A stretch of 64,000 bases of DNA, taken from contig NC_044006.1 of NCBI RefSeq assembly GCF_900496995.4, positions 78,919,754 through 78,983,753 of the forward strand, written 5' to 3'. Positions within the stretch are counted from its first letter, which is position 1. Each line of letters starts with the position of its first letter. The notes beneath the pieces were generated by a model. It ran no database searches, was not told the origin of the DNA, and was given only the letters and a program-made list of their open reading frames with translations. Position numbers and translations under genes: made by a program. Source of the DNA: Aquila chrysaetos chrysaetos. Lineage: Eukaryota > Chordata > Aves > Accipitriformes > Accipitridae. Of this stretch, positions 4,122 through 16,948 are shown one piece after another.

Positions 4122-4190
4122 ATGGCCCGGGGGGGGGCTGCTGGGGGGCTGAGGGCGGCGGGGAGCGCGGGGGCCCGGCGGCAAGGATGA
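4122..4190 (+). CDS. Short upstream ORF overlapping the ASIC3 start codon (ATGA)
   Basis: An ATG in a very good context (gcggcgATGG) at 4122 opens a 22-codon frame whose TGA (4188-4190) overlaps the ASIC3 ATG (4187-4189) as ATGA. If the leader is unspliced here, ribosomes would meet this frame first, and a termination-reinitiation arrangement could limit ASIC3 translation. It may equally be chance, or the result of a miscounted G-run in 4131-4160. Whether this lies in the mRNA leader is inferred. Confidence 0.35.
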
Positions 4191-7100
4191 GGGCGGGCTC
4201 GGAGGGCAGCGGGGAGGGCGAGGGTCTCTCCAGCCTGCGGGCCTTCGCCCACAGCTCCTCGCTGCACGGCATCAGCCACGTCTTCGCCTACGGGGCCGTG
4301 TCGCTGCGCCGCGTGCTGTGGGGCGCCTTCTTCCTGGGCTCGCTGGGCCTGCTGCTGCTGGTCTGCGCCGAGCGCGTCGCCTACTTCCTCACCTACCCCC
4401 ACGTCACCAAGCTGGACGAGGTGGCCGCCCACAACCTCACCTTCCCGGCCATCACCATCTGCAACCTCAACGAGTTCCGCTTCTCCAAGATCACCCGCAA
4501 CGACATGTACCACGTGGGCGAGCTGCTGGCGCTGCTCAACGACCGCTACGAGATCAGCAACCCGCAGCTGGCCGAGCCCCACGTCCTGGCCGCCCTGCGC
4601 GACAAGGCCAACTTCAAGAACTTCAAGGCGAAGCCCTTCAGCATGGCCGAGTTCTACAACCGCACCGGCCACGACCTGGCCGACATGCTGCTGCAGTGCT
4701 CCTTCCGCGGCGCCAACTGCACCGCCCGCAACTTCACCGTGGTGAGTGCTGGCCCCGGGGCGCGGTGCCCGGCTGGAGGAGGGGGCTGCACCGGGGCGGG
4801 GTGGCCACGCGCCCGCCGGGAACCGCGAATGGACGCGGGTGTCCTGCCAGGGTGAGCCCCTTCTCCCGACCCGCGGCCGTCCCGCCGGCGCGTCCCATCG
4901 CCCGCAGCACGTCAGCCCCTGCCCACCTCCCCGGGCACTGCGGTGGGCTGGTTGCCAGCCAGGGGTGCCCCCACCCCGCACTCGCTGCAGGGGTGCCAGG
5001 CGGCTGGGAACGGGCGCCCAGGCTGGAGCCATGCTGAGCCGGGGGCCCTGTGCCAGGCCGGGTGGCTCTGCCTGCATGCAGCCGCTCGGGCAGGGGATGC
5101 TGGTGGGTACGGGATGCTCACGGGTACAGCCCATAGCTCCGCTCCCTGCGCCAGCCCTGGATGCCACCCGGGCACCGGCAGCAGCAGCTGTTTCTCCCAG
5201 GCTCTGTTTGCACACAGGCTCCCACGCCCGCAGCTCCTCCGCGCAGCCTGCCCTGGTGCAGATGGGGGTCCCCTGTGCCAGAGCTGTCCCCCCACAGACC
5301 GTGGGTGCCTGGCCCCGGTGCTGCCCCCAGCACCCCCTGCTGCTCCTGGGGCTGCACCCGCTCTGCTCTCAACCTGGGGGATTGCCGGTGCCCGCGCGCT
5401 CCCACCACACCTGCCATGCCCCGGTGGCATGCCAGCGGGGCCGAGCTGCGTCCCCTGGGCTGCATGTTCACCCCCGGGTGACATGCAGGGTGCTGGCAGC
5501 TGCCAGAGCATGGCGGGGGGAGCAGGGCTGCCACGTCCCTCTGCAGGCATGGGCTGCTGTGGGCAGCGGGGCAGCCGTGGGAGGAGGTGCCCTCCCTGCC
5601 CCGTCCGTGCAGCCCCAGGTGGGCACAGGGACCCCTAACCCAGGGCTCGGCTCCCCCAGGCAAACCTTGGCCACGGGCAGCCTGTGCTGGGTTCTGCAAG
5701 ACCCACCTGGGGCAGTGCCTGCCCGGGAGGGACGGGCAGGGGCGGTGGCACGGGCAGGACAGGCGCATCCTTCGTGCTGCGACAGCGCCAGGGAAGCAGC
5801 GTGCTCGGTGGAGCTGGGCAGCCTGCGCCCGCTGTGCACAGCTCTGCTCGGTCCCCATCGCCATCACCGTGGGCTTGGCTGCGCTATCACAACAGCAATT
5901 ACCGTCAGCTTAAGACTCTTTAGTGCGCGAAATTAATTTTCCTTGGGAGCTCAGTTGAAAAGCATCCCTTTTGGCAGCTCCGCGCTCCCCGTGCCCTTTG
6001 CTGGACCAGCTCTGCCGGTGCCCCTGTGGCAGGGCCAGGCGGCAGCAGTCCCCGGGGTTGAGGGCTGGGATGTGCCGTGGGAGGGTCGAGGGTCCCCAGA
6101 GCAGGACCCAGGGTGGCACATGCTGCATGGCGGCAGCTTGCTGCAGCTTGAAAGCCGGCACCTCTCCAAGGAGTGTGGCTGAGCCACCGGGGCCTTGGCG
6201 TGCCGCCGGTGTGGGGTGCCGGTGCCTGCCCCAGGGGTGCGCGGGAACCCGTCTTTGCTCCTGTGCCGATGATCTTGGCATGTGCGCGCTGTGCTGTGCT
6301 GCTCCCGCTGCCCCCAGGGTCATGGTCACTGCCGGGAGGGTCTCACTCTGCCCACGTGTGCCGCACGACCGGTCCTGCTGCCGCCTCGTCTCCGACGGGT
6401 GGTGAGAAACTTCTGCCTGAGCAGCTGTGGTGGTCCCCGGCACACAGAGCCCCCCCCCCACGGGACGGCCCTGGCCCGGCTCAGCCCGGCTCAGTCCTGC
6501 CTCCGACTGCACCCGCTGCAACTTTGCCGGCTAAAAATACAGAGCTAATGCTGGGGCTTAGCCACAGATCATGATCCTCTGCCCTGGGCCTCAGCGCTGA
6601 GCCGGCAGCTCCCGGCACCGTGTCCCGTCCAGCGGCCGTGGGCTCTGGGGTTGCCGGGGCTCCCATCCTGTGCCGGGGCTGGAGAGGTCGGCTGTGCGCG
6701 GCGTCTTGTCCCAGCCCCATCCCTGGGGTCCCCGAGATCCCCAGGCACGTCGCAAGTGTCCAAAGCAAGGGCCATCCGGGCTGTGCCCCCCTGTTGCTTC
6801 ATCTGGGCTGGGGCTGTGCCCCCCTGTTGCTTCCCCCCCCCGGGGCCGGCAGGGCTGGGGGTCCTCGAGCTGTAGGGCTGGGGGGGGGCTTGATGGTGGT
6901 TCACCCCGAGCGTGGGGACCAGGAGGGCTGGCAGTGCCGGGGCCGTGTCCCTGTCCCCGTCCCCATCCCTGTGTCCCCCCCCCCAGCTGCTGCCGGGCCC
7001 AGCACATCCCTGTGCCGGGCAGCCGTTGCCATGGCAGCCGCCCCCCCTTCCTCCTTGGGCAGCACGTTGCCATGGTGACGGCTCCCCTCTTTGGGAGCAG

Positions 7101-10100
7101 CCCGTTGCCACAGCAGCGTCCCGTCCGTCCCCCCCCCCGCCACCAGTGGGGCAGGATGGGGGGGGACACCTTATAGTGGGGGGGGGGCCCTGACCCCATG
7201 GGGCAGTTACGGCCCCCCTGGGCCACCCCCCGCCCCCAGGCCATGGGTCAGTGACGGGACTTGGGGGGGGCCATGGCTGCAGCCCCCTGCGCCCGGGGCA
7301 GCCCCTCTGTGGGGTGGGGGCCATGGGCCCCTGCATGGGATGGGGCTCTGCCCCGGGGGCACGAAGCAGGGGCTAGGTCAGGGGGAATGGGGGTCGGGGG
7401 TCTGGGGGGGGGGCGGCTCAGGGTTGTTAAGTTCAGGGTCACGCTGGGGGCTCTGGGCAGGGTCTCTGCCCCCGGGCGCTGGTCCCTGGGGGCATTGGGG
7501 GCCCTGGCTGTGGGTTCTGGTCCCTGGGGTCCCTGGCATGGGGCAGGCTCCCAGGTCCTGGTGGGGATGATGGCCTCTGCCACCGTGGCTAAGCCCAGCC
7601 CTGGTCCCTGTCACCGTCCTGGCTCGTGTCCTCCCACTCACGTGTCCCCGTGCAGCCCCACGTCCCCCCAGAGCCGTGCTGAAACCCAATCCCCCTGCAG
7701 AGCCCCGGCAGAGCTGCACGGGCTGGGGCGCGTCTTTGTGCCCACGGTGCCGGCACCCTGCCGCCTGCTCTGGGCTGGCGCTTTCCTGGCCTCACCGGGC
7801 ACCTTCCTGCTGAAGGTCAGGGAGCGGGTCCGGCACCACGCCGCGTATCCCCGCGTCACGATGCTGGACGAGGCGGAGGGCCGCGTCCTCGTCTTCCCTG
7901 CCGTCACCCTCTGCAACTAGAACTGCGTCCGGCGCTCCCAGCTCACCCCCAACGACCTGTTCTGGCTGGGCAGGGAGCTGCCGGCGGTGGGGAGAGAGGA
8001 TTTCCCCCGCTACCTGCGGGCGCTGGGGCGGCCCCCCGACCTCGCCGGCTTCTTCCCCAGCAAGAGCTACGACCTGGGCGCCTTCTACCAGCGCGCCGGG
8101 CACCCCATCCATGAGATGCTGCTGCACTGCCGCTCCCGCGGCCGGGACTGCGGCCCCGAGAACTTCACCGCCGTGAGTGCCAGCACCACCGCCATGGCCA
8201 TGGCCACCGCCACGGCTGGCTCTGCCCAGGGCAGGACCCACAGCAGCCCCAGCCCCGGCTGGCTCTGCCCTGGGCAGGGCTTGGGCAGGACCCCCAGGGC
8301 TGAGCAGGTTTTGGGGCCACGGGGTGTGCAGGCTGTGGGGTGGTCGTCTGCGGGGTTGCGCAGGCTGTGGGGTGATGGTGGGGTGGGGGCACGGCACCTG
8401 CCCGCCCCGCTGTCCCCCAGCCCCAGGCGCTTGGCAAAGCTCCCACCACGCTGCCCTGGGGCGGCTCCTTTTGCCCACCCTGCACCCATGGGGCCGTGGG
8501 GAGATGCAGGGCCGTGGGGAAGCGTGGTGGAGATGGGGAGTCACGGGGGGGGATGTGGAGCTGTGGCTGCAGTGCAGGCATGGGCGGACCGGGGTCGGGG
8601 GGCAATGGCCGGAGTGTGCAGCTCTCGGCCCCGCTCCCCACAGGAGAGCTGGCCGTGGGGAGGGGACGTGGGGCTGTGGGGGCAAGGGTGCCATGGCAGG
8701 GCAAGGGCAGGCAGTCTCTGCTCGCTGAGAAGTGGCAGTGGAGGGCTGTGGGGGCTTTTTCTGTGCTGGGGGGCTGTGGGAAGAGGAGGGTCAGCCCCAG
8801 GTAGGGGGTCTGTGGGGGCCTTCCAAGGGGTCGGGGTCCTGTATCCCGCCTGGCTGGGACTGGGGAGGGACCATCCCTCTGCCGCAGTGAGCGCTGGGGT
8901 CTGTGGGGCAGGCCATGGGGCGGGGGTCCCCCAGGGCCATGGGGACCCAGCAGAGCTGAGGACACCACGCTGGGGCAGGGACAGCAGCAGTCGCCCCATG
9001 GCCCCATCTGCAGCCCCACGCTGGCCCCAAAGGGGAAGGGATGGACGCACCAGCCCCCTCCCTGTGCACTGACTGGTGGGGTGATGGGATCCTGCACGGG
9101 GAGCACTGGGATCCTGCCCCGGGGCTGTGCTGGGTCCCCGGGCACTGCATTCCCCCCCCCCCCAGCCCTGCTCAGTGGGCGCAGGGCAGGCGGGCGCCCA
9201 GCTCCCATCCCCCAGCACCCCGAATGCCACCGTCCCACGGGCAGCCCCCGCGGCGGGCGCTGAGGGTCCTGCCCTGTCCCTGCAGATCTTCACCCGCCTT
9301 GGCAAGTGCTACACCTTCAACTCGGGGGGACCGGGCCGGGAGGTGCTGACCACGCTGCAGGGCGGCGCGGGGAACGGCCTGGAGCTGATGCTCAATGTCC
9401 AACAAGAGGAATACCTGCCCGTCTGGGGGGACACGGGTGAGCCCCCCCCCCCTGCAGCCCTGCCCACGGCCCGGCTGCTGCCCCGCACCCCTGACGCCCA
9501 CCCTGCCTTGCAGACGAGACCTCCTACGAGGCGGGGGTGAAGGTGCAGATCCACAGCCAGGAGGAGCCCCCCTTCATCGACCAGCTGGGCTTCGGCGTGG
9601 CGCCCGGCTTCCAGACCTTCGTGTCCTGCCAGCAGCAGCGGGTATCCGGCCGCTCTGCCCGGGCGGTGCAGGGAGAGGGCTGTGGGCATGCAGACCCCCC
9701 CGGGGCTCGGGCAGTCCCGGCACGGCCAACAGCCGTCCCCACGGGGACATCCCGTGCCGAGCTGTGCTGCACGGCAGGTACTGAACCACCGGTGTGGCAG
9801 CTTTGCCACCGCAGCGGCCAGGATCACCGTGGCACGGCGTGGGGCAGCCCCACGCTGGGACCACTCGGTCCTGCCGCAGGCACTGGCTCTCAGCAGCGAC
9901 CCCCCCCCCCCCCCCCCCCCCGCAGCCTCCTGCCGAACAGACCGTCGGCAGGGGCGGCAGCCAGCTCGCGCAGCCAGACACCTAAATTTAGGTGTCTCGA
10001 GTGGGTGTCTCCATGTGTGCCGGCACTCGTGGCGTGGGCGGCAGGGAGTGCAGCGACGGCGGGAGCGTGACCTTCGGCACCCATGGGCGCCCTGCCGAGC

Positions 10101-13100
10101 CCCGCCGCTCCCCCACCAAGCACGCTCCCGGCGCTGGCCATGGCACGGTCTCCCACAGCCCCTCTGGGTGCTGCCCATCTCGGGGAGCGCAGGGGTCTGT
10201 GCCGACCCCCCGGCACATCTGGCTCCCACATGCTCCCAGCTGGCGCCACATGCTGTCCCTCGCCTGGCCCCTTCCATCCCGCTGCTGCGCTGGCTGCGGG
10301 CGATGCCGGCCCTGATGCCCATCCTTGTATCCAGCAAGAAGGGAGCAGGAGTGAGAGTGGGGGGGTCTCCAGGGTGGTGTGACCCCCCCCCCCCGCACTG
10401 GCTACACAGGACTAGCTCTGCCCAAGGGACAGGGCACCACGGTGGGTTGGGAGGTGGGGGCTGTGGGCCGGGGACATGGGGGACGCCGTGTTTTCCTTAG
10501 CCACGGCCGGCAGCTGGTGTACCTGCCCCCACCCTGGGGGGACTGCAAGGCCACCCCCATCGAGTCTGAATTCTTCACCAACTACAGCATCACCGCCTGC
10601 CGCTTGGACTGCGAGACCCGCTACCTGGCTGAGAACTGCAAAACTGCCGCATGGTGCACATGCCGGGTGAGCCGGGGATGGGGGCGGCCACCGCGGGGCC
10701 GGGGCGATGGGGAGACCCTCCTGCCCCTGCAACTCCTGCCTCCCCCGCAGGCAACGCCAACGTCTGCACCCCAGAGCAGTACAAGGAGTGCGCCGACCCT
10801 GCGCTGGGTACGTACCGGCGGCACCCTGCCCGCCCCGGCCCCCACCCCGGCCCTGCTGTCTCTGGTGTCCCCGACCCAGCCCCGGGTCTCGCCCTGGGAG
10901 CCGCGCTCCATCGACACCCTCAGCCTCGTCCCTGGGACCCCCCTCGCCTCCCCTGCCAGGCTCCATCGCTGCGAATGTGGCACCGGCATCCCCGTGCCCT
11001 CGCTGGGGAGGGGGGGTCACTGCTGTCCCTGCCTGCTCAGACCCCCAGACACGCAGGTCTGGGCTCCCCTCTGTGCGCTGCCTGCAGCGCTCACAGCGTG
11101 CTTTTCCTGTGCCACCGGCACCCGCCACCACCCGGGCTTTGGCCAGGGCCCGGGCTCCATTCTCAGAGCAGCCTGACCCCCCCCACCCGGGCAGGGGTCA
11201 CGGCCACGCGGTCCCGGTGGTCCCCGTCCCACGCGTGCCCTCCCCAGACTTCCTGGTGAAGAAGGACAGCGAGTACTGCGCCTGCCGCACGCCCTGCGCC
11301 ATGGTGCGCTACGGCAAAGAGCTCTCCATGGTGAAGATCCCCAGCAAGGCATCCGCCAGGTACCTGGCCAAGAAGTTCAACAAGACGGAGCAGTACATCG
11401 CGTGAGTGCCACCACCGCGCTGACCCACGGCCCTGCCAGCACACGGCACAGCACAGCGTGACGGTGTGATACGGCACAGCCACACGGCATCCCGCAGTAT
11501 ACCTGAACTGGCACGGCACGGCATGATGGTGTGATACGGCACGGCCCAGCATGACGGTGTGATACAGCATGGCATGACCACACGGCACCCCCAGCATACA
11601 TGAACCGGCACGGCACGGCGTGATGATGTGATATGGCATGGCACGGCACGGCCACACAGCATGCCCCAGCATACGTGAACTGGCACGACACGGCACTGCC
11701 TCCCCTGTGCAAATCTGCCCCAGCACAGGGAAAACCACACGGCATGGCACAGCACAGCACAACATGGCACGGCATGGCACAGCACAGCATGGCACAGTAC
11801 GTCCTTGTGCCACCCCAGCACAGGGCAGACCCCTCCACCCCGTCCCACCAGCACACCGTGGCACGGCACGGCCCCCCCACAGCTGGGGATGCCACCTGAT
11901 GGCTCATCCGTCCGTCCCGCACCCATCTGTCCCCCCCCCAGGGACAACGTGCTGGTCCTGGACATCTTCTTTGAGGCCCTGAACTACGAGATGATAGAGC
12001 AGAAGAAGGCGTACGAGGTGGCGGGGCTGCTGGGTGAGCTCCCGGGGGGACTGGGGGGGGGGGGGGGGGGGGGGCAGCCCCCCTCTAACACTGCCTTCCT
12101 GCCCAGGCGACATCGGGGGGCAGATGGGGCTCTTCATCGGTGCCAGCCTCCTCACCATCCTGGAGATCTTCGACTACCTGTACGAGGTGAGCGCCCGCCC
12201 GGCCCCCCCCGGCCCCCCACGCTGCCCCCCGGCCGGGGGGTGCTCAGGCCCGCGGCCGGGGGCTCTAACCCGTCTCCCCCAGGTGTTCCGGGACAAACTC
12301 CTCAGCTTCTACAAGGAGAAGAGGAGGACGCCCAGGAGCGACAGCAGCACCCTGGTAACCCCCCCAGCCCGCCCGGCCCTGCCCCGCTGGGGGCTGCACC
12401 CCCCCCCCCCCCCAGCACCCCTCCAACCCCCCCGGGCTGCGACCCGGCCGCCCCGTCCCCCCTCCCCTGGCACAGCCGGCAAGGGGGGGCCTCGCACCTC
12501 ATCCCACCCATCTGCTGCTCGGCCTCATCCCGCCCCGGGACCGGCACCATCTCCCGCTCGGACCCCGCGCGCTCATTCGCTCCTCTCTGTCCGTCCGTCC
12601 GTCCGTCCGTCCTGCGGCCTCGCCGCCCGCCAGGAGCATCCAGCGGTCCCGGGCAGCCCCGCTGTCCCGCTCCCGCCGGGGCCCAGGTAGAGATCCCCGC
12701 TCTACACCCGGGGGGGGGGGTCAGCGCCCAGAGCCCCCACCGCCGCAATGCCGGCACGGGGGGGGGGGCCGTGGGGCTGCGTCCCCCCCAGGGGGAGGAC
12801 GGGGGTCCCCGGCCGGGGCGCAGCAAGGGGCGAGGAGGACGTGGCCACGGCCCCGCAGGGGGGCTGCGACCCGCCCCCCCCCCCCCCCCCCGTTCCCCGC
12901 AAGCAGGCCCTGGGGGTCCGCACCCCTCTCCCTCCATCCCAGGCTTTTCTTGGCATCATCCCTGGAGCCGGTGTGTGGGGGCCACCCCCCGCCGGCTCCG
13001 CTCCCATCCTCATGCATCGCTCCCTGGCACTGTGTCCCCCGGGTCCCCCCTGCCCAGGGCCCCCCCCCATACCCCCACTGGCCAGGGGCCACCCCAGCCT

Positions 13101-13470
13101 CCCCCCCAGGACGCTGCGGGGCAGGAGGGAGCCCCAGTCCTGGGGGAAGCTGGCCGCTCGGGGACAGGGGGGACGGGGACAGCCTTGCTCTGCAGGGTCT
13201 GCGCGCTGGGCCCCCCCGGACATGGGGGGGCTCCCGGGGCAGCCCGAGGGGCGTGTGGGGTGGGAACAGGGGGCAGAGCCCCCCGGCATGGGCTGGCACA
13301 GGGGAGGAAGGACAGCGGCTGCAGCACGGCCGGGGCACGGCCGCCTGGAGCCCCCAGCCGCCCCCGACCGACACCCCCCCCGCCCCCCCAGAGCACCCGT
13401 CCCCCCCTGCGCTGCCACACGGACAGTCTCAGCTTCGCCACGAACGTGCTACCTCGTCACCCGGCTCTAG
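4187..13470 (+). CDS. ASIC3: ASIC3-type acid-sensing ion channel subunit (DEG/ENaC family)
   Basis: A proton-gated, amiloride-sensitive Na+ channel subunit of the plasma membrane. Coding exons: 4187-4741, 9286-9436, 9514-9641, 10514-10666, 10751-10807, 11248-11401, 11942-12033, 12107-12186, 12283-12354, 12634-12686 and 13392-13470, about 523 aa (human ASIC3 531). Exon 1 has the HG motif (SLHGISHVF) and TM1. Then come the ASIC core motifs [25 protein letters not shown] and CETRY, and TM2 with the GAS selectivity filter (GLFIGAS). The tail CYLVTRL is the ASIC3-type PDZ ligand. The start is chosen because residues before [10 protein letters not shown] match ASIC3 spacing. Synteny between ABCB8 and CDK5 supports ASIC3. 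Exon 10514-10666 carries two extra A's (aactgc-aaaactgcc, where [12 protein letters not shown] is expected), which breaks the frame. Everything downstream is conserved, so an assembly error is likeliest; a recent pseudogene is possible. Confidence 0.88.
4742..7707 (+). other. ASIC3 first intron, no further gene seen
   Basis: About 3 kb follows the donor GTGAGT at 4742. I found no conserved protein segment on either strand. The sequence is GC-rich, with simple GGGGG tracts and the repeated phrase GCCCCCCTGTTGCTTC (6784-6834). A short TATA-like CTAAAAATACAG occurs at 6531-6542 but no gene follows that I can support. Regulatory content cannot be judged by eye. Confidence 0.4.
7708..8172 (+). pseudogene. 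ASIC3: Second, ASIC3-like alternative first exon (exon 1b) with an in-frame stop
   Basis: The + strand encodes a second version of the ASIC N-terminal third. HGLGRVF, a TM1-like stretch, [30 protein letters not shown] and CGPENFTA follow in order. These match mammalian ASIC3 exon 1 better than exon 4187-4741 does (human has RALGRPPAPPGF, RAGHS and CGPENFTT). It ends at 8172 on a good GTGAGT donor in the phase needed to join exon 9286. A TAG at 7918-7920 interrupts the frame right after LCN. No convincing start codon is visible: an ATG at about 7567 is in frame but gives a longer N-terminus than human. It may be a decaying first exon; read error or recoding are less likely. Upstream limit approximate. 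Confidence 0.75.
8173..9285 (+). other. ASIC3 intron between exon 1b and exon 2
   Basis: GC-rich intron of about 1.1 kb. It ends at the acceptor CCCTGCAG before exon 2 at 9286, which both candidate first exons would use. A short tandem GCCATG(G/A)CCACCG segment lies at 8192-8212. Nothing else recognised. Confidence 0.45.
11410..11830 (+). repeat. Intronic GGCAC-rich degenerate tandem repeat in ASIC3
   Basis: About 400 bp of the intron between exons 11248-11401 and 11942-12033 is built from GGCAC/GGCAT pentamers with longer repeated phrases such as CACGGCACGGCATGATGGTG and GTGATACGGCACGG. It is a minisatellite-like array of uneven units. A complementary-looking GTGCC/ATGCC array occurs in an SLC4A2 intron (36180-36415). 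Confidence 0.7.
12687..13391 (+). other. ASIC3 last intron
   Basis: A 705-bp very GC-rich intron between the 53-nt penultimate exon and the dual-frame last exon. It begins GTAGAG, ends CCCCCCAG, and contains several poly-G/poly-C runs of 9 to 16 bases. No conserved coding segment is seen. Confidence 0.5.
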
Positions 13471-13496
13471 GCGCTTTCGAGGAGTTTGCCTGCTGA
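13392..13496 (+). CDS. ASIC3: ASIC3 last exon, second reading frame: ASIC1/2/4-like tail
   Basis: The last exon is open in two frames from its first base. Reached through the 53-nt exon 12634-12686 it is read as ...[15 protein letters not shown], stop 13468-13470, like mammalian ASIC3. If exon 12283-12354 (phase 0, ends SSTL) joins directly, the same DNA reads [15 protein letters not shown]..., then [15 protein letters not shown], stop 13494-13496. That ending resembles ASIC1 (GTFEDFTC), ASIC2 (GTLEEIAC) and ASIC4 (LFEDFAC). The predicted alternative protein is about 514 aa. Conservation of both readings is seen in the sequence; use of the second by splicing is inferred. Confidence 0.7.

Positions 13497-14556: not shown

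Positions 14557-16948
<2,392 letters not shown>

Follow-up and report, generated by a model that had tools for sequence, protein, structure and literature searches.

Two C-terminal tails in overlapping reading frames of the last ASIC3 exon of Aquila chrysaetos

Frame-shifting (non-triplet) alternative splicing that gives dual-coding isoforms is a described class (Athavudeen et al. 2026, PMC13247117), and the accessible passages of that study report that wobble positions are more conserved in dual-coded stretches. The ASIC3 gene of Aquila chrysaetos chrysaetos lies in the window, by which we mean the whole stretch of DNA that was analysed (64,000 nucleotides of contig NC_044006.1). Its last exon resembles the class as those passages set it out, in which a cassette whose length is not divisible by three leads to a downstream stretch of at least 60 nt being coded in two frames. 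Unlike the class as described there, each frame in ASIC3 ends in a ligand motif of a different class, and the tails recur from teleosts to birds; no term beginning with ASIC occurs in the main text of PMC13247117. Among the matches listed from the openly licensed literature, as judged by titles and abstract openings, no earlier description of dual coding in the ASIC3 last exon was found. The class is known, and what is set apart here is the age of the arrangement, selection on both frames, and tails that act as ligands of two classes.

The INK4a/ARF gene is a dual-coding gene whose second product is a distinct protein. In GNAS/ALEX, too, one DNA stretch encodes two proteins, the second again being a distinct protein in the part of the source that describes it (PMC2329644). 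ASIC3 differs from both in that its two products are tails of the same channel. ASIC3 is already known to be alternatively spliced, as the human ASIC3a, ASIC3b and ASIC3c variants attest (PMC7801124, PMC8484650, PMC11011685), and this splicing alters the C-terminal domain (PMC7801124), but the passages concerned mention neither a shared two-frame exon nor a link to an ASIC1-type tail. According to the same passages, rodents have a single ASIC3 variant, and ASIC3b and ASIC3c are little known (PMC7801124, PMC8484650, PMC11011685).

The C-terminal ends themselves fall into two kinds in the relevant passages of the literature. The ASIC3 end is printed as VTRL, a type I PDZ motif, and the ASIC1 and ASIC2 ends, DFTC and EIAC, are closer to type II PDZ motifs (PMC3562204). 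Human ASIC3 ends in TCYLVTQL (PMC8555555; peptide table in PMC9576141). PSD-95, Lin-7B, CIPP, NHERF and stomatin act on ASIC3 via its C-terminal end, and PICK1 binds ASIC1 and ASIC2, not ASIC3 (PMC8555555). The split between partners is not absolute, since PSD-95 acts on ASIC2a too and Lin-7B acts modestly on ASIC1a (PMC8555555).

Two readings of the last exon

The coding part of the last ASIC3 exon occupies 13392-13496 of the plus strand, is preceded by AG, and can be read directly in two frames. Upstream on the same strand lie exon 9 (12283-12354, 72 nt, AG and GT borders), which closes on a complete codon, and a cassette exon of 53 nt (12634-12686), a length of the form 3n+2 and so not divisible by three, which is bordered by AG and GT, codes 17 residues plus 2 nt, and is presumably used as an alternative exon that selects the frame. 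With the cassette included, the last exon is read from 13393, ends in RTCYLVTRL, and stops at the TAG at 13468-13470; we call this ending tail A. With the cassette skipped, exon 9 joins the last exon, which is then read from 13392, ends in EFAC, and stops at the TGA at 13494-13496, giving tail B. Counting the A stop, 78 nt (13393-13470) are coded in both frames, a longer stretch than the 60-nt minimum of the described class.

The ends of both eagle tails fit PDZ ligand patterns, VTRL that of type I, with T at position -2 and L at position 0, and EFAC that of type II, with F at -2 and C at 0. Against the PDB, tail B gives an ungapped alignment that runs to the final residue of ASIC1, with E values of 2.7e-4 to 3.6e-4 for four of the five distinct sequences listed. 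The fifth match, mS136, has an E value of 0.51 and is ascribed to chance. Tail A has no ASIC match in the PDB, where ASIC1, ASIC2 and ASIC5 are listed and no ASIC3 is. The original prediction for this DNA, made from the letters alone, was that the last exon encodes two C-termini in overlapping frames with the 53-nt cassette setting the frame, that inclusion gives the mammalian ASIC3 PDZ-binding end, and that skipping gives an end like those of ASIC1, ASIC2 and ASIC4. All three parts agree with what we find: the exons, borders and both readings are present at the positions given above, tail A fits the printed VTRL and the human TCYLVTQL in the passages cited, and the skip tail resembles the ASIC1 end with an E value of about 3e-4.

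The cysteine of human TCYLVTQL appears in the peptide table of PMC9576141 as potentially palmitoylated, and the same cysteine is found in eagle tail A; tail B also has a terminal cysteine.

Tails across vertebrates and constraint on two frames

Homologous proteins came from one vertebrate search (120 of 1,205 matches listed, 90% clustering) and two tail-region searches, and 164 were fetched; outside the eagle the isoforms are known from database records, often models. Classed by their last residues, 28 have tail A, 63 tail B (a lamprey ASIC1-like protein among them), 52 an ASIC1/2-type tail and 21 some other ending, counts that are circular with respect to the end motif and are no test of it. 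Within the matches listed, the animals with tail A are teleosts, lizards, a python and birds, and those with tail B range over sharks, rays, gar, sturgeon, lungfish, many teleosts, a caecilian, turtles, lizards, snakes and birds. The matches listed from sharks, lungfish, gar, sturgeon, caecilian and turtles include no tail A, an absence that is uninformative given the 90% clustering and an A-tail search of 23 candidates, and no fetched protein other than those of the ASIC3/ASIC1C gene was seen to carry it. Tail B is nearly invariant in fish, and GNFEEFAC is the end of 47 of the 62 tail-B proteins, lamprey excluded. A similarity search with a shark tail returned 53 proteins, 52 of them ending in EFAC, and one with the A-tail region (23 candidates scored) returned five, all from lizards and all ending in YLVTRL.

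The cassette comprises 18 residues in 13 of the 26 tail-A proteins that could be parsed and 13 to 30 in the rest except P0007, whose count of 111 includes intron read through (P0027 and P0115 are unparsed, and python P0046 is offset by an extra codon). These residue counts are the sole data on cassette length elsewhere, nucleotide lengths being computed from them as 3(n-1)+2 on the assumption of eagle exon phases, and they therefore provide no test of phase. The only species in which both tails were noticed is Brachyhypopomus gauderio (P0073, P0158), and its B model P0158 consists of the cassette plus other residues and is not a clean skip. In the electric-fish models P0158 and P0161 the cassette and tail B are both present with extra residues between them, a structure that suggests a further splice route to tail B.

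Could the family likeness of one tail be a by-product of selection on the other? Each A codon has its second base at the wobble position of a B codon. In our codon test one eagle peptide was held and its synonymous codons were redealt 100,000 times, with either the gene's own or uniform codon usage. Eagle tail A is identical to eel tail A at 18 of 26 residues; with the B peptide held, redealt codons give 8.1 +/- 1.5 under gene usage, and 18 is reached in none of the 100,000 deals under gene usage and in one under uniform usage. Eagle tail B is identical to gar tail B at 17 of 27 residues; with the A peptide held, the redealt value is 8.6 +/- 1.6, and 17 is reached in none of 100,000 under gene usage and in 12 under uniform usage. 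Both results argue that the two frames are under selection, a conclusion based on protein comparisons and on the DNA of one species. Past the A stop, the eagle retains GAFEEFAC and a stop over 26 nt that serve B only.

One reading nonetheless holds that birds use tail A alone and that B looks ASIC1-like only because the A frame preserves the DNA beneath it. The Aquila database record, P0002, is indeed the A isoform, and four passerine models (P0003, P0004, P0005 and P0086) continue the B frame well beyond the point where it formerly ended and lack EFAC; tail A is retained in the passerine P0012. From these four models, loss of one frame looks lineage-specific. In emu, duck, swan and budgerigar the records end in tail B, redealt codons with the A peptide held average 8.6 of 27 matches to gar B against the observed 17, and the B-only residues past the A stop are kept where A exerts no constraint; we regard a passive echo of A as unlikely.

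The preferred reading, dual coding with selection on both frames, can also be examined across species, by pairing A tails with B tails and counting, out of 51 residues, those that no single DNA read in frames one base apart could satisfy. The rows were 26 of the 28 A tails, after removal of two repeats from the same species, against 26 of the 62 tail-B proteins and five ASIC1, ASIC2 or lamprey proteins. Seven of the nine teleost A tails have 0 of 51 conflicts with gar, sturgeon, emu, Chelonia and all six teleost B rows, and the other two, both cypriniform, have none with carp B. Close relatives also reach zero, as with parrot A and parrot B and with quail A and swan B. Python A, which carries its own one-codon insertion, has two conflicts with boa B and at least nine with every other row; that it fits boa B alone suggests that a codon gained in one frame has its counterpart in the other. 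Relatedness does not always predict the fit: Podarcis A has no conflict with Pogona B and one with Zootoca B, and ostrich A has one conflict with emu B and also one with gar B. The A tails of sparrow and cuckoo conflict with non-snake tail-B rows at 4 to 10 residues, a poor fit that is expected where B has decayed. In the controls, shuffled B tails averaged 17.64 conflicts with a minimum of 10 (806 pairs), and register shifts averaged 19.69 with a minimum of 9 (4,836 pairs).

ASIC1, ASIC2 and lamprey rows had 6 to 17 conflicts. Tail B resembles the ASIC1 and ASIC2 C-termini and has the same end pattern, but none of the four ASIC1 and ASIC2 rows compared could encode tail A in a second frame, each having at least six conflicts. 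The residues lying over the A stop point the same way. They are LG, IG, VG or LT in all 62 tail-B proteins (lamprey excluded), each of which permits TAG or TAA, and in 51 of the 52 ASIC1/2-type tails they are RG, QG or similar, pairs that do not permit the A stop. That two family-like tails in the same bases are unlikely to be a chance outcome, as had been proposed, is borne out by codon redealing and by this compatibility between species. Dual coding outside the eagle is what the protein pairs, mostly from different species, point to, the DNA itself having been read in one species. Separate last exons for the two tails are ruled out in the window by direct reading, and the two-frame test makes them very unlikely elsewhere.

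The tree built on the shared core (36 rows, with 11 of the 28 A proteins and 15 of the 63 B proteins; midpoint root, disturbed by a long duck row) is used here for one feature only: close relatives with tail A and with tail B are intermingled in it, as is expected of splice forms of one gene. Python A groups with boa B (100/99) and both Brachyhypopomus forms group together (100/100); the pairing of ostrich A with emu B (84/0) and the ASIC1/ASIC2 branch (93/93) are below the starred threshold of the tree.

Layout and integrity of the gene

The remainder of the gene lies on the plus strand of the window. The first exon, of ASIC1a type, is intact at 4187-4741, with its ATG at 4187, and exons 2-8 (9286-9436, 9514-9641, 10514-10666, 10751-10807, 11248-11401, 11942-12033 and 12107-12186) are all bordered by AG and GT. 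The exon translations amount to 508 residues in 11 pieces, each of which is found whole in the 523-residue Aquila chrysaetos record P0002, exons 2-8 being compared as whole codons and exon 4 matching up to the insertion described below; the cassette residues are likewise present in P0002. The ASC channel domain PF00858 scores 400 bits on P0002, which includes the exon translations of the window outside the insertion.

The last exon of CDK5 adjoins ASIC3 at 14557-14643 on the minus strand (E 1.7e-14). An ABC transporter stretch lies on the other side at 2536-2763; P-glycoprotein-type chains, with two matching domains each, score best there, and ABCB8 matches with an E value of 3.6e-32. We take this gene to be ABCB8, a name that leans partly on position, the order presumably being CDK5 on one side of ASIC3 and ABCB8 on the other.

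As assembled, ASIC3 lacks an unbroken frame. Exon 4 reads AACTGCAAAACTGCCGC, and a 2-nt insertion at about 10637-10646 on the plus strand, AAAAC where the homologues need AAC, breaks the reading frame. ENCNCRM is present in all 60 homologues listed for this place and in 148 of the 164 proteins fetched, the remaining 16 being counted in bulk. The insertion is probably an assembly error, given that all 60 of these homologues have ENCNCRM and that the database name of P0002 carries the flag LOW QUALITY PROTEIN.

The insertion could instead be taken to mean that ASIC3 is a pseudogene in this bird and the two frames fading relics here, and a second, mammal-like first exon with an in-frame TAG at 7918 could be taken the same way. 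The other exons, though, are open, with all 508 residues in 11 pieces lying within P0002, the related Morphnus record P0016 has ENCNCRM at the break, and a sequencing error may account for two added A in a short run of A, so that a pseudogene seems to us decidedly unlikely.

The second first exon lies at about 7700-8172. By eye it resembles the beginning of the lizard proteins P0121 and P0157, as well as what we take to be the start of mammalian ASIC3; its own start is seemingly lost in the window. Two N-terminal forms occur in Podarcis (P0045 and P0121) and in a shark (P0042 and P0124), suggesting that the two-start design of ASIC1 may be ancestral in ASIC3 too.

Origin of tail A and a proposed splice switch

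How would one exon come to serve two tails? Tail B is common to ASIC1, ASIC2 and the lamprey ASIC1-like protein, and in the fetched set tail A is seen only in ASIC3/ASIC1C, a distribution that makes B ancestral and A an overprint upon it. It had been suggested from the eagle DNA that the ASIC3-specific tail arose by overprinting of an ancestral ASIC tail and that the old frame may still be in use; the distribution of the tails favours the first idea, and the codon test, the B-only residues past the A stop, and the 52 of 53 shark-tail matches ending in EFAC indicate that the old frame has been kept. A sauropsid- or mammal-only origin of tail A is ruled out, teleost ASIC1C proteins sharing the ending. 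The teleost-tetrapod split took place about 430 million years ago. With tail A in both teleosts and sauropsids, its origin would precede their split, and, judging from the protein tails, the dual-tail pattern is older than first supposed. The compatibility of shark, lungfish and caecilian B with A was rejected as proof that A predates bony fish, because those B tails are so near teleost B that B alone gives the low conflict counts.

That only B is ancient and functional, the A cassette having arisen independently in teleosts, sauropsids and mammals and A owing its likeness to B-preserved DNA, is very improbable: B is indeed found more widely than A among the fetched proteins, from sharks to birds, and is nearly invariant in fish, but A second codon positions fall on B wobble positions, redealt codons with B held average 8.1 of 26 matches to eel A against the observed 18, and the eagle cassette and one teleost cassette are alike (equal residue count, 8 of 18 residues identical, as high in 34 of 100,000 shuffles).

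We conclude that the last exon of ASIC3 (fish ASIC1C) is, very probably, a case of splice-selected dual coding in which A overprinted B before the teleost-tetrapod split, both frames having been kept by selection and either decaying in some lineages. In the mechanism that we propose, the choice of cassette in splicing would set the frame. Skipping of the cassette would give the ancestral tail B, with EFAC as a type II PDZ ligand resembling the ASIC1 and ASIC2 ends; inclusion of the cassette (3n+2 nt) would shift the same bases by one and give tail A, with VTRL as a type I ligand. Both transcripts are presumably made today, and as both stops are inside the last exon, neither isoform should trigger nonsense-mediated decay and both messages should be stable. 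Going by the end motifs and by what the available literature says of ASIC1 and ASIC2 versus ASIC3, tails A and B may bind different PDZ partners, in which case the switch would direct the channel either to type I partners (PSD-95, Lin-7B, CIPP and NHERF, and also stomatin) or to the type II partner PICK1. One DNA stretch seems to have been a switch between two anchoring tails over several hundred million years.

On balance we lean towards a wider reading, in which the ASIC3/ASIC1C exon is among the oldest functioning dual-coding exons in animals, the switch between PDZ-scaffold classes continues to operate in present-day fish, reptiles and non-passerine birds, and mammals kept mainly the overprinted tail, so that the mammalian ASIC3 C-terminus would be a frame-shifted ASIC1-type tail. 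The second frame of the last exon of human ASIC3 is, in the sequence that we take to be correct, open but lacks an EFAC end, a point that carries no weight in the argument here. If true, this reading would account for a mammalian ASIC3 PDZ tail that is unlike the ASIC1 and ASIC2 tails, and would provide a clear example from nature of overlapping frames that selection has maintained, both of them, since teleosts and tetrapods diverged. It predicts that one splicing choice can route the same acid and pain sensor to different scaffolds, and lineages missing one frame would serve as comparisons for the role of each tail.

Two minor features of the last exon may be added. Its acceptor is AGAG (13390-13393), and the second AG, if used, would shift the frame again. 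A third frame of the last exon turns up in a few database models (P0017, P0018 and P0025), seemingly via other routes.
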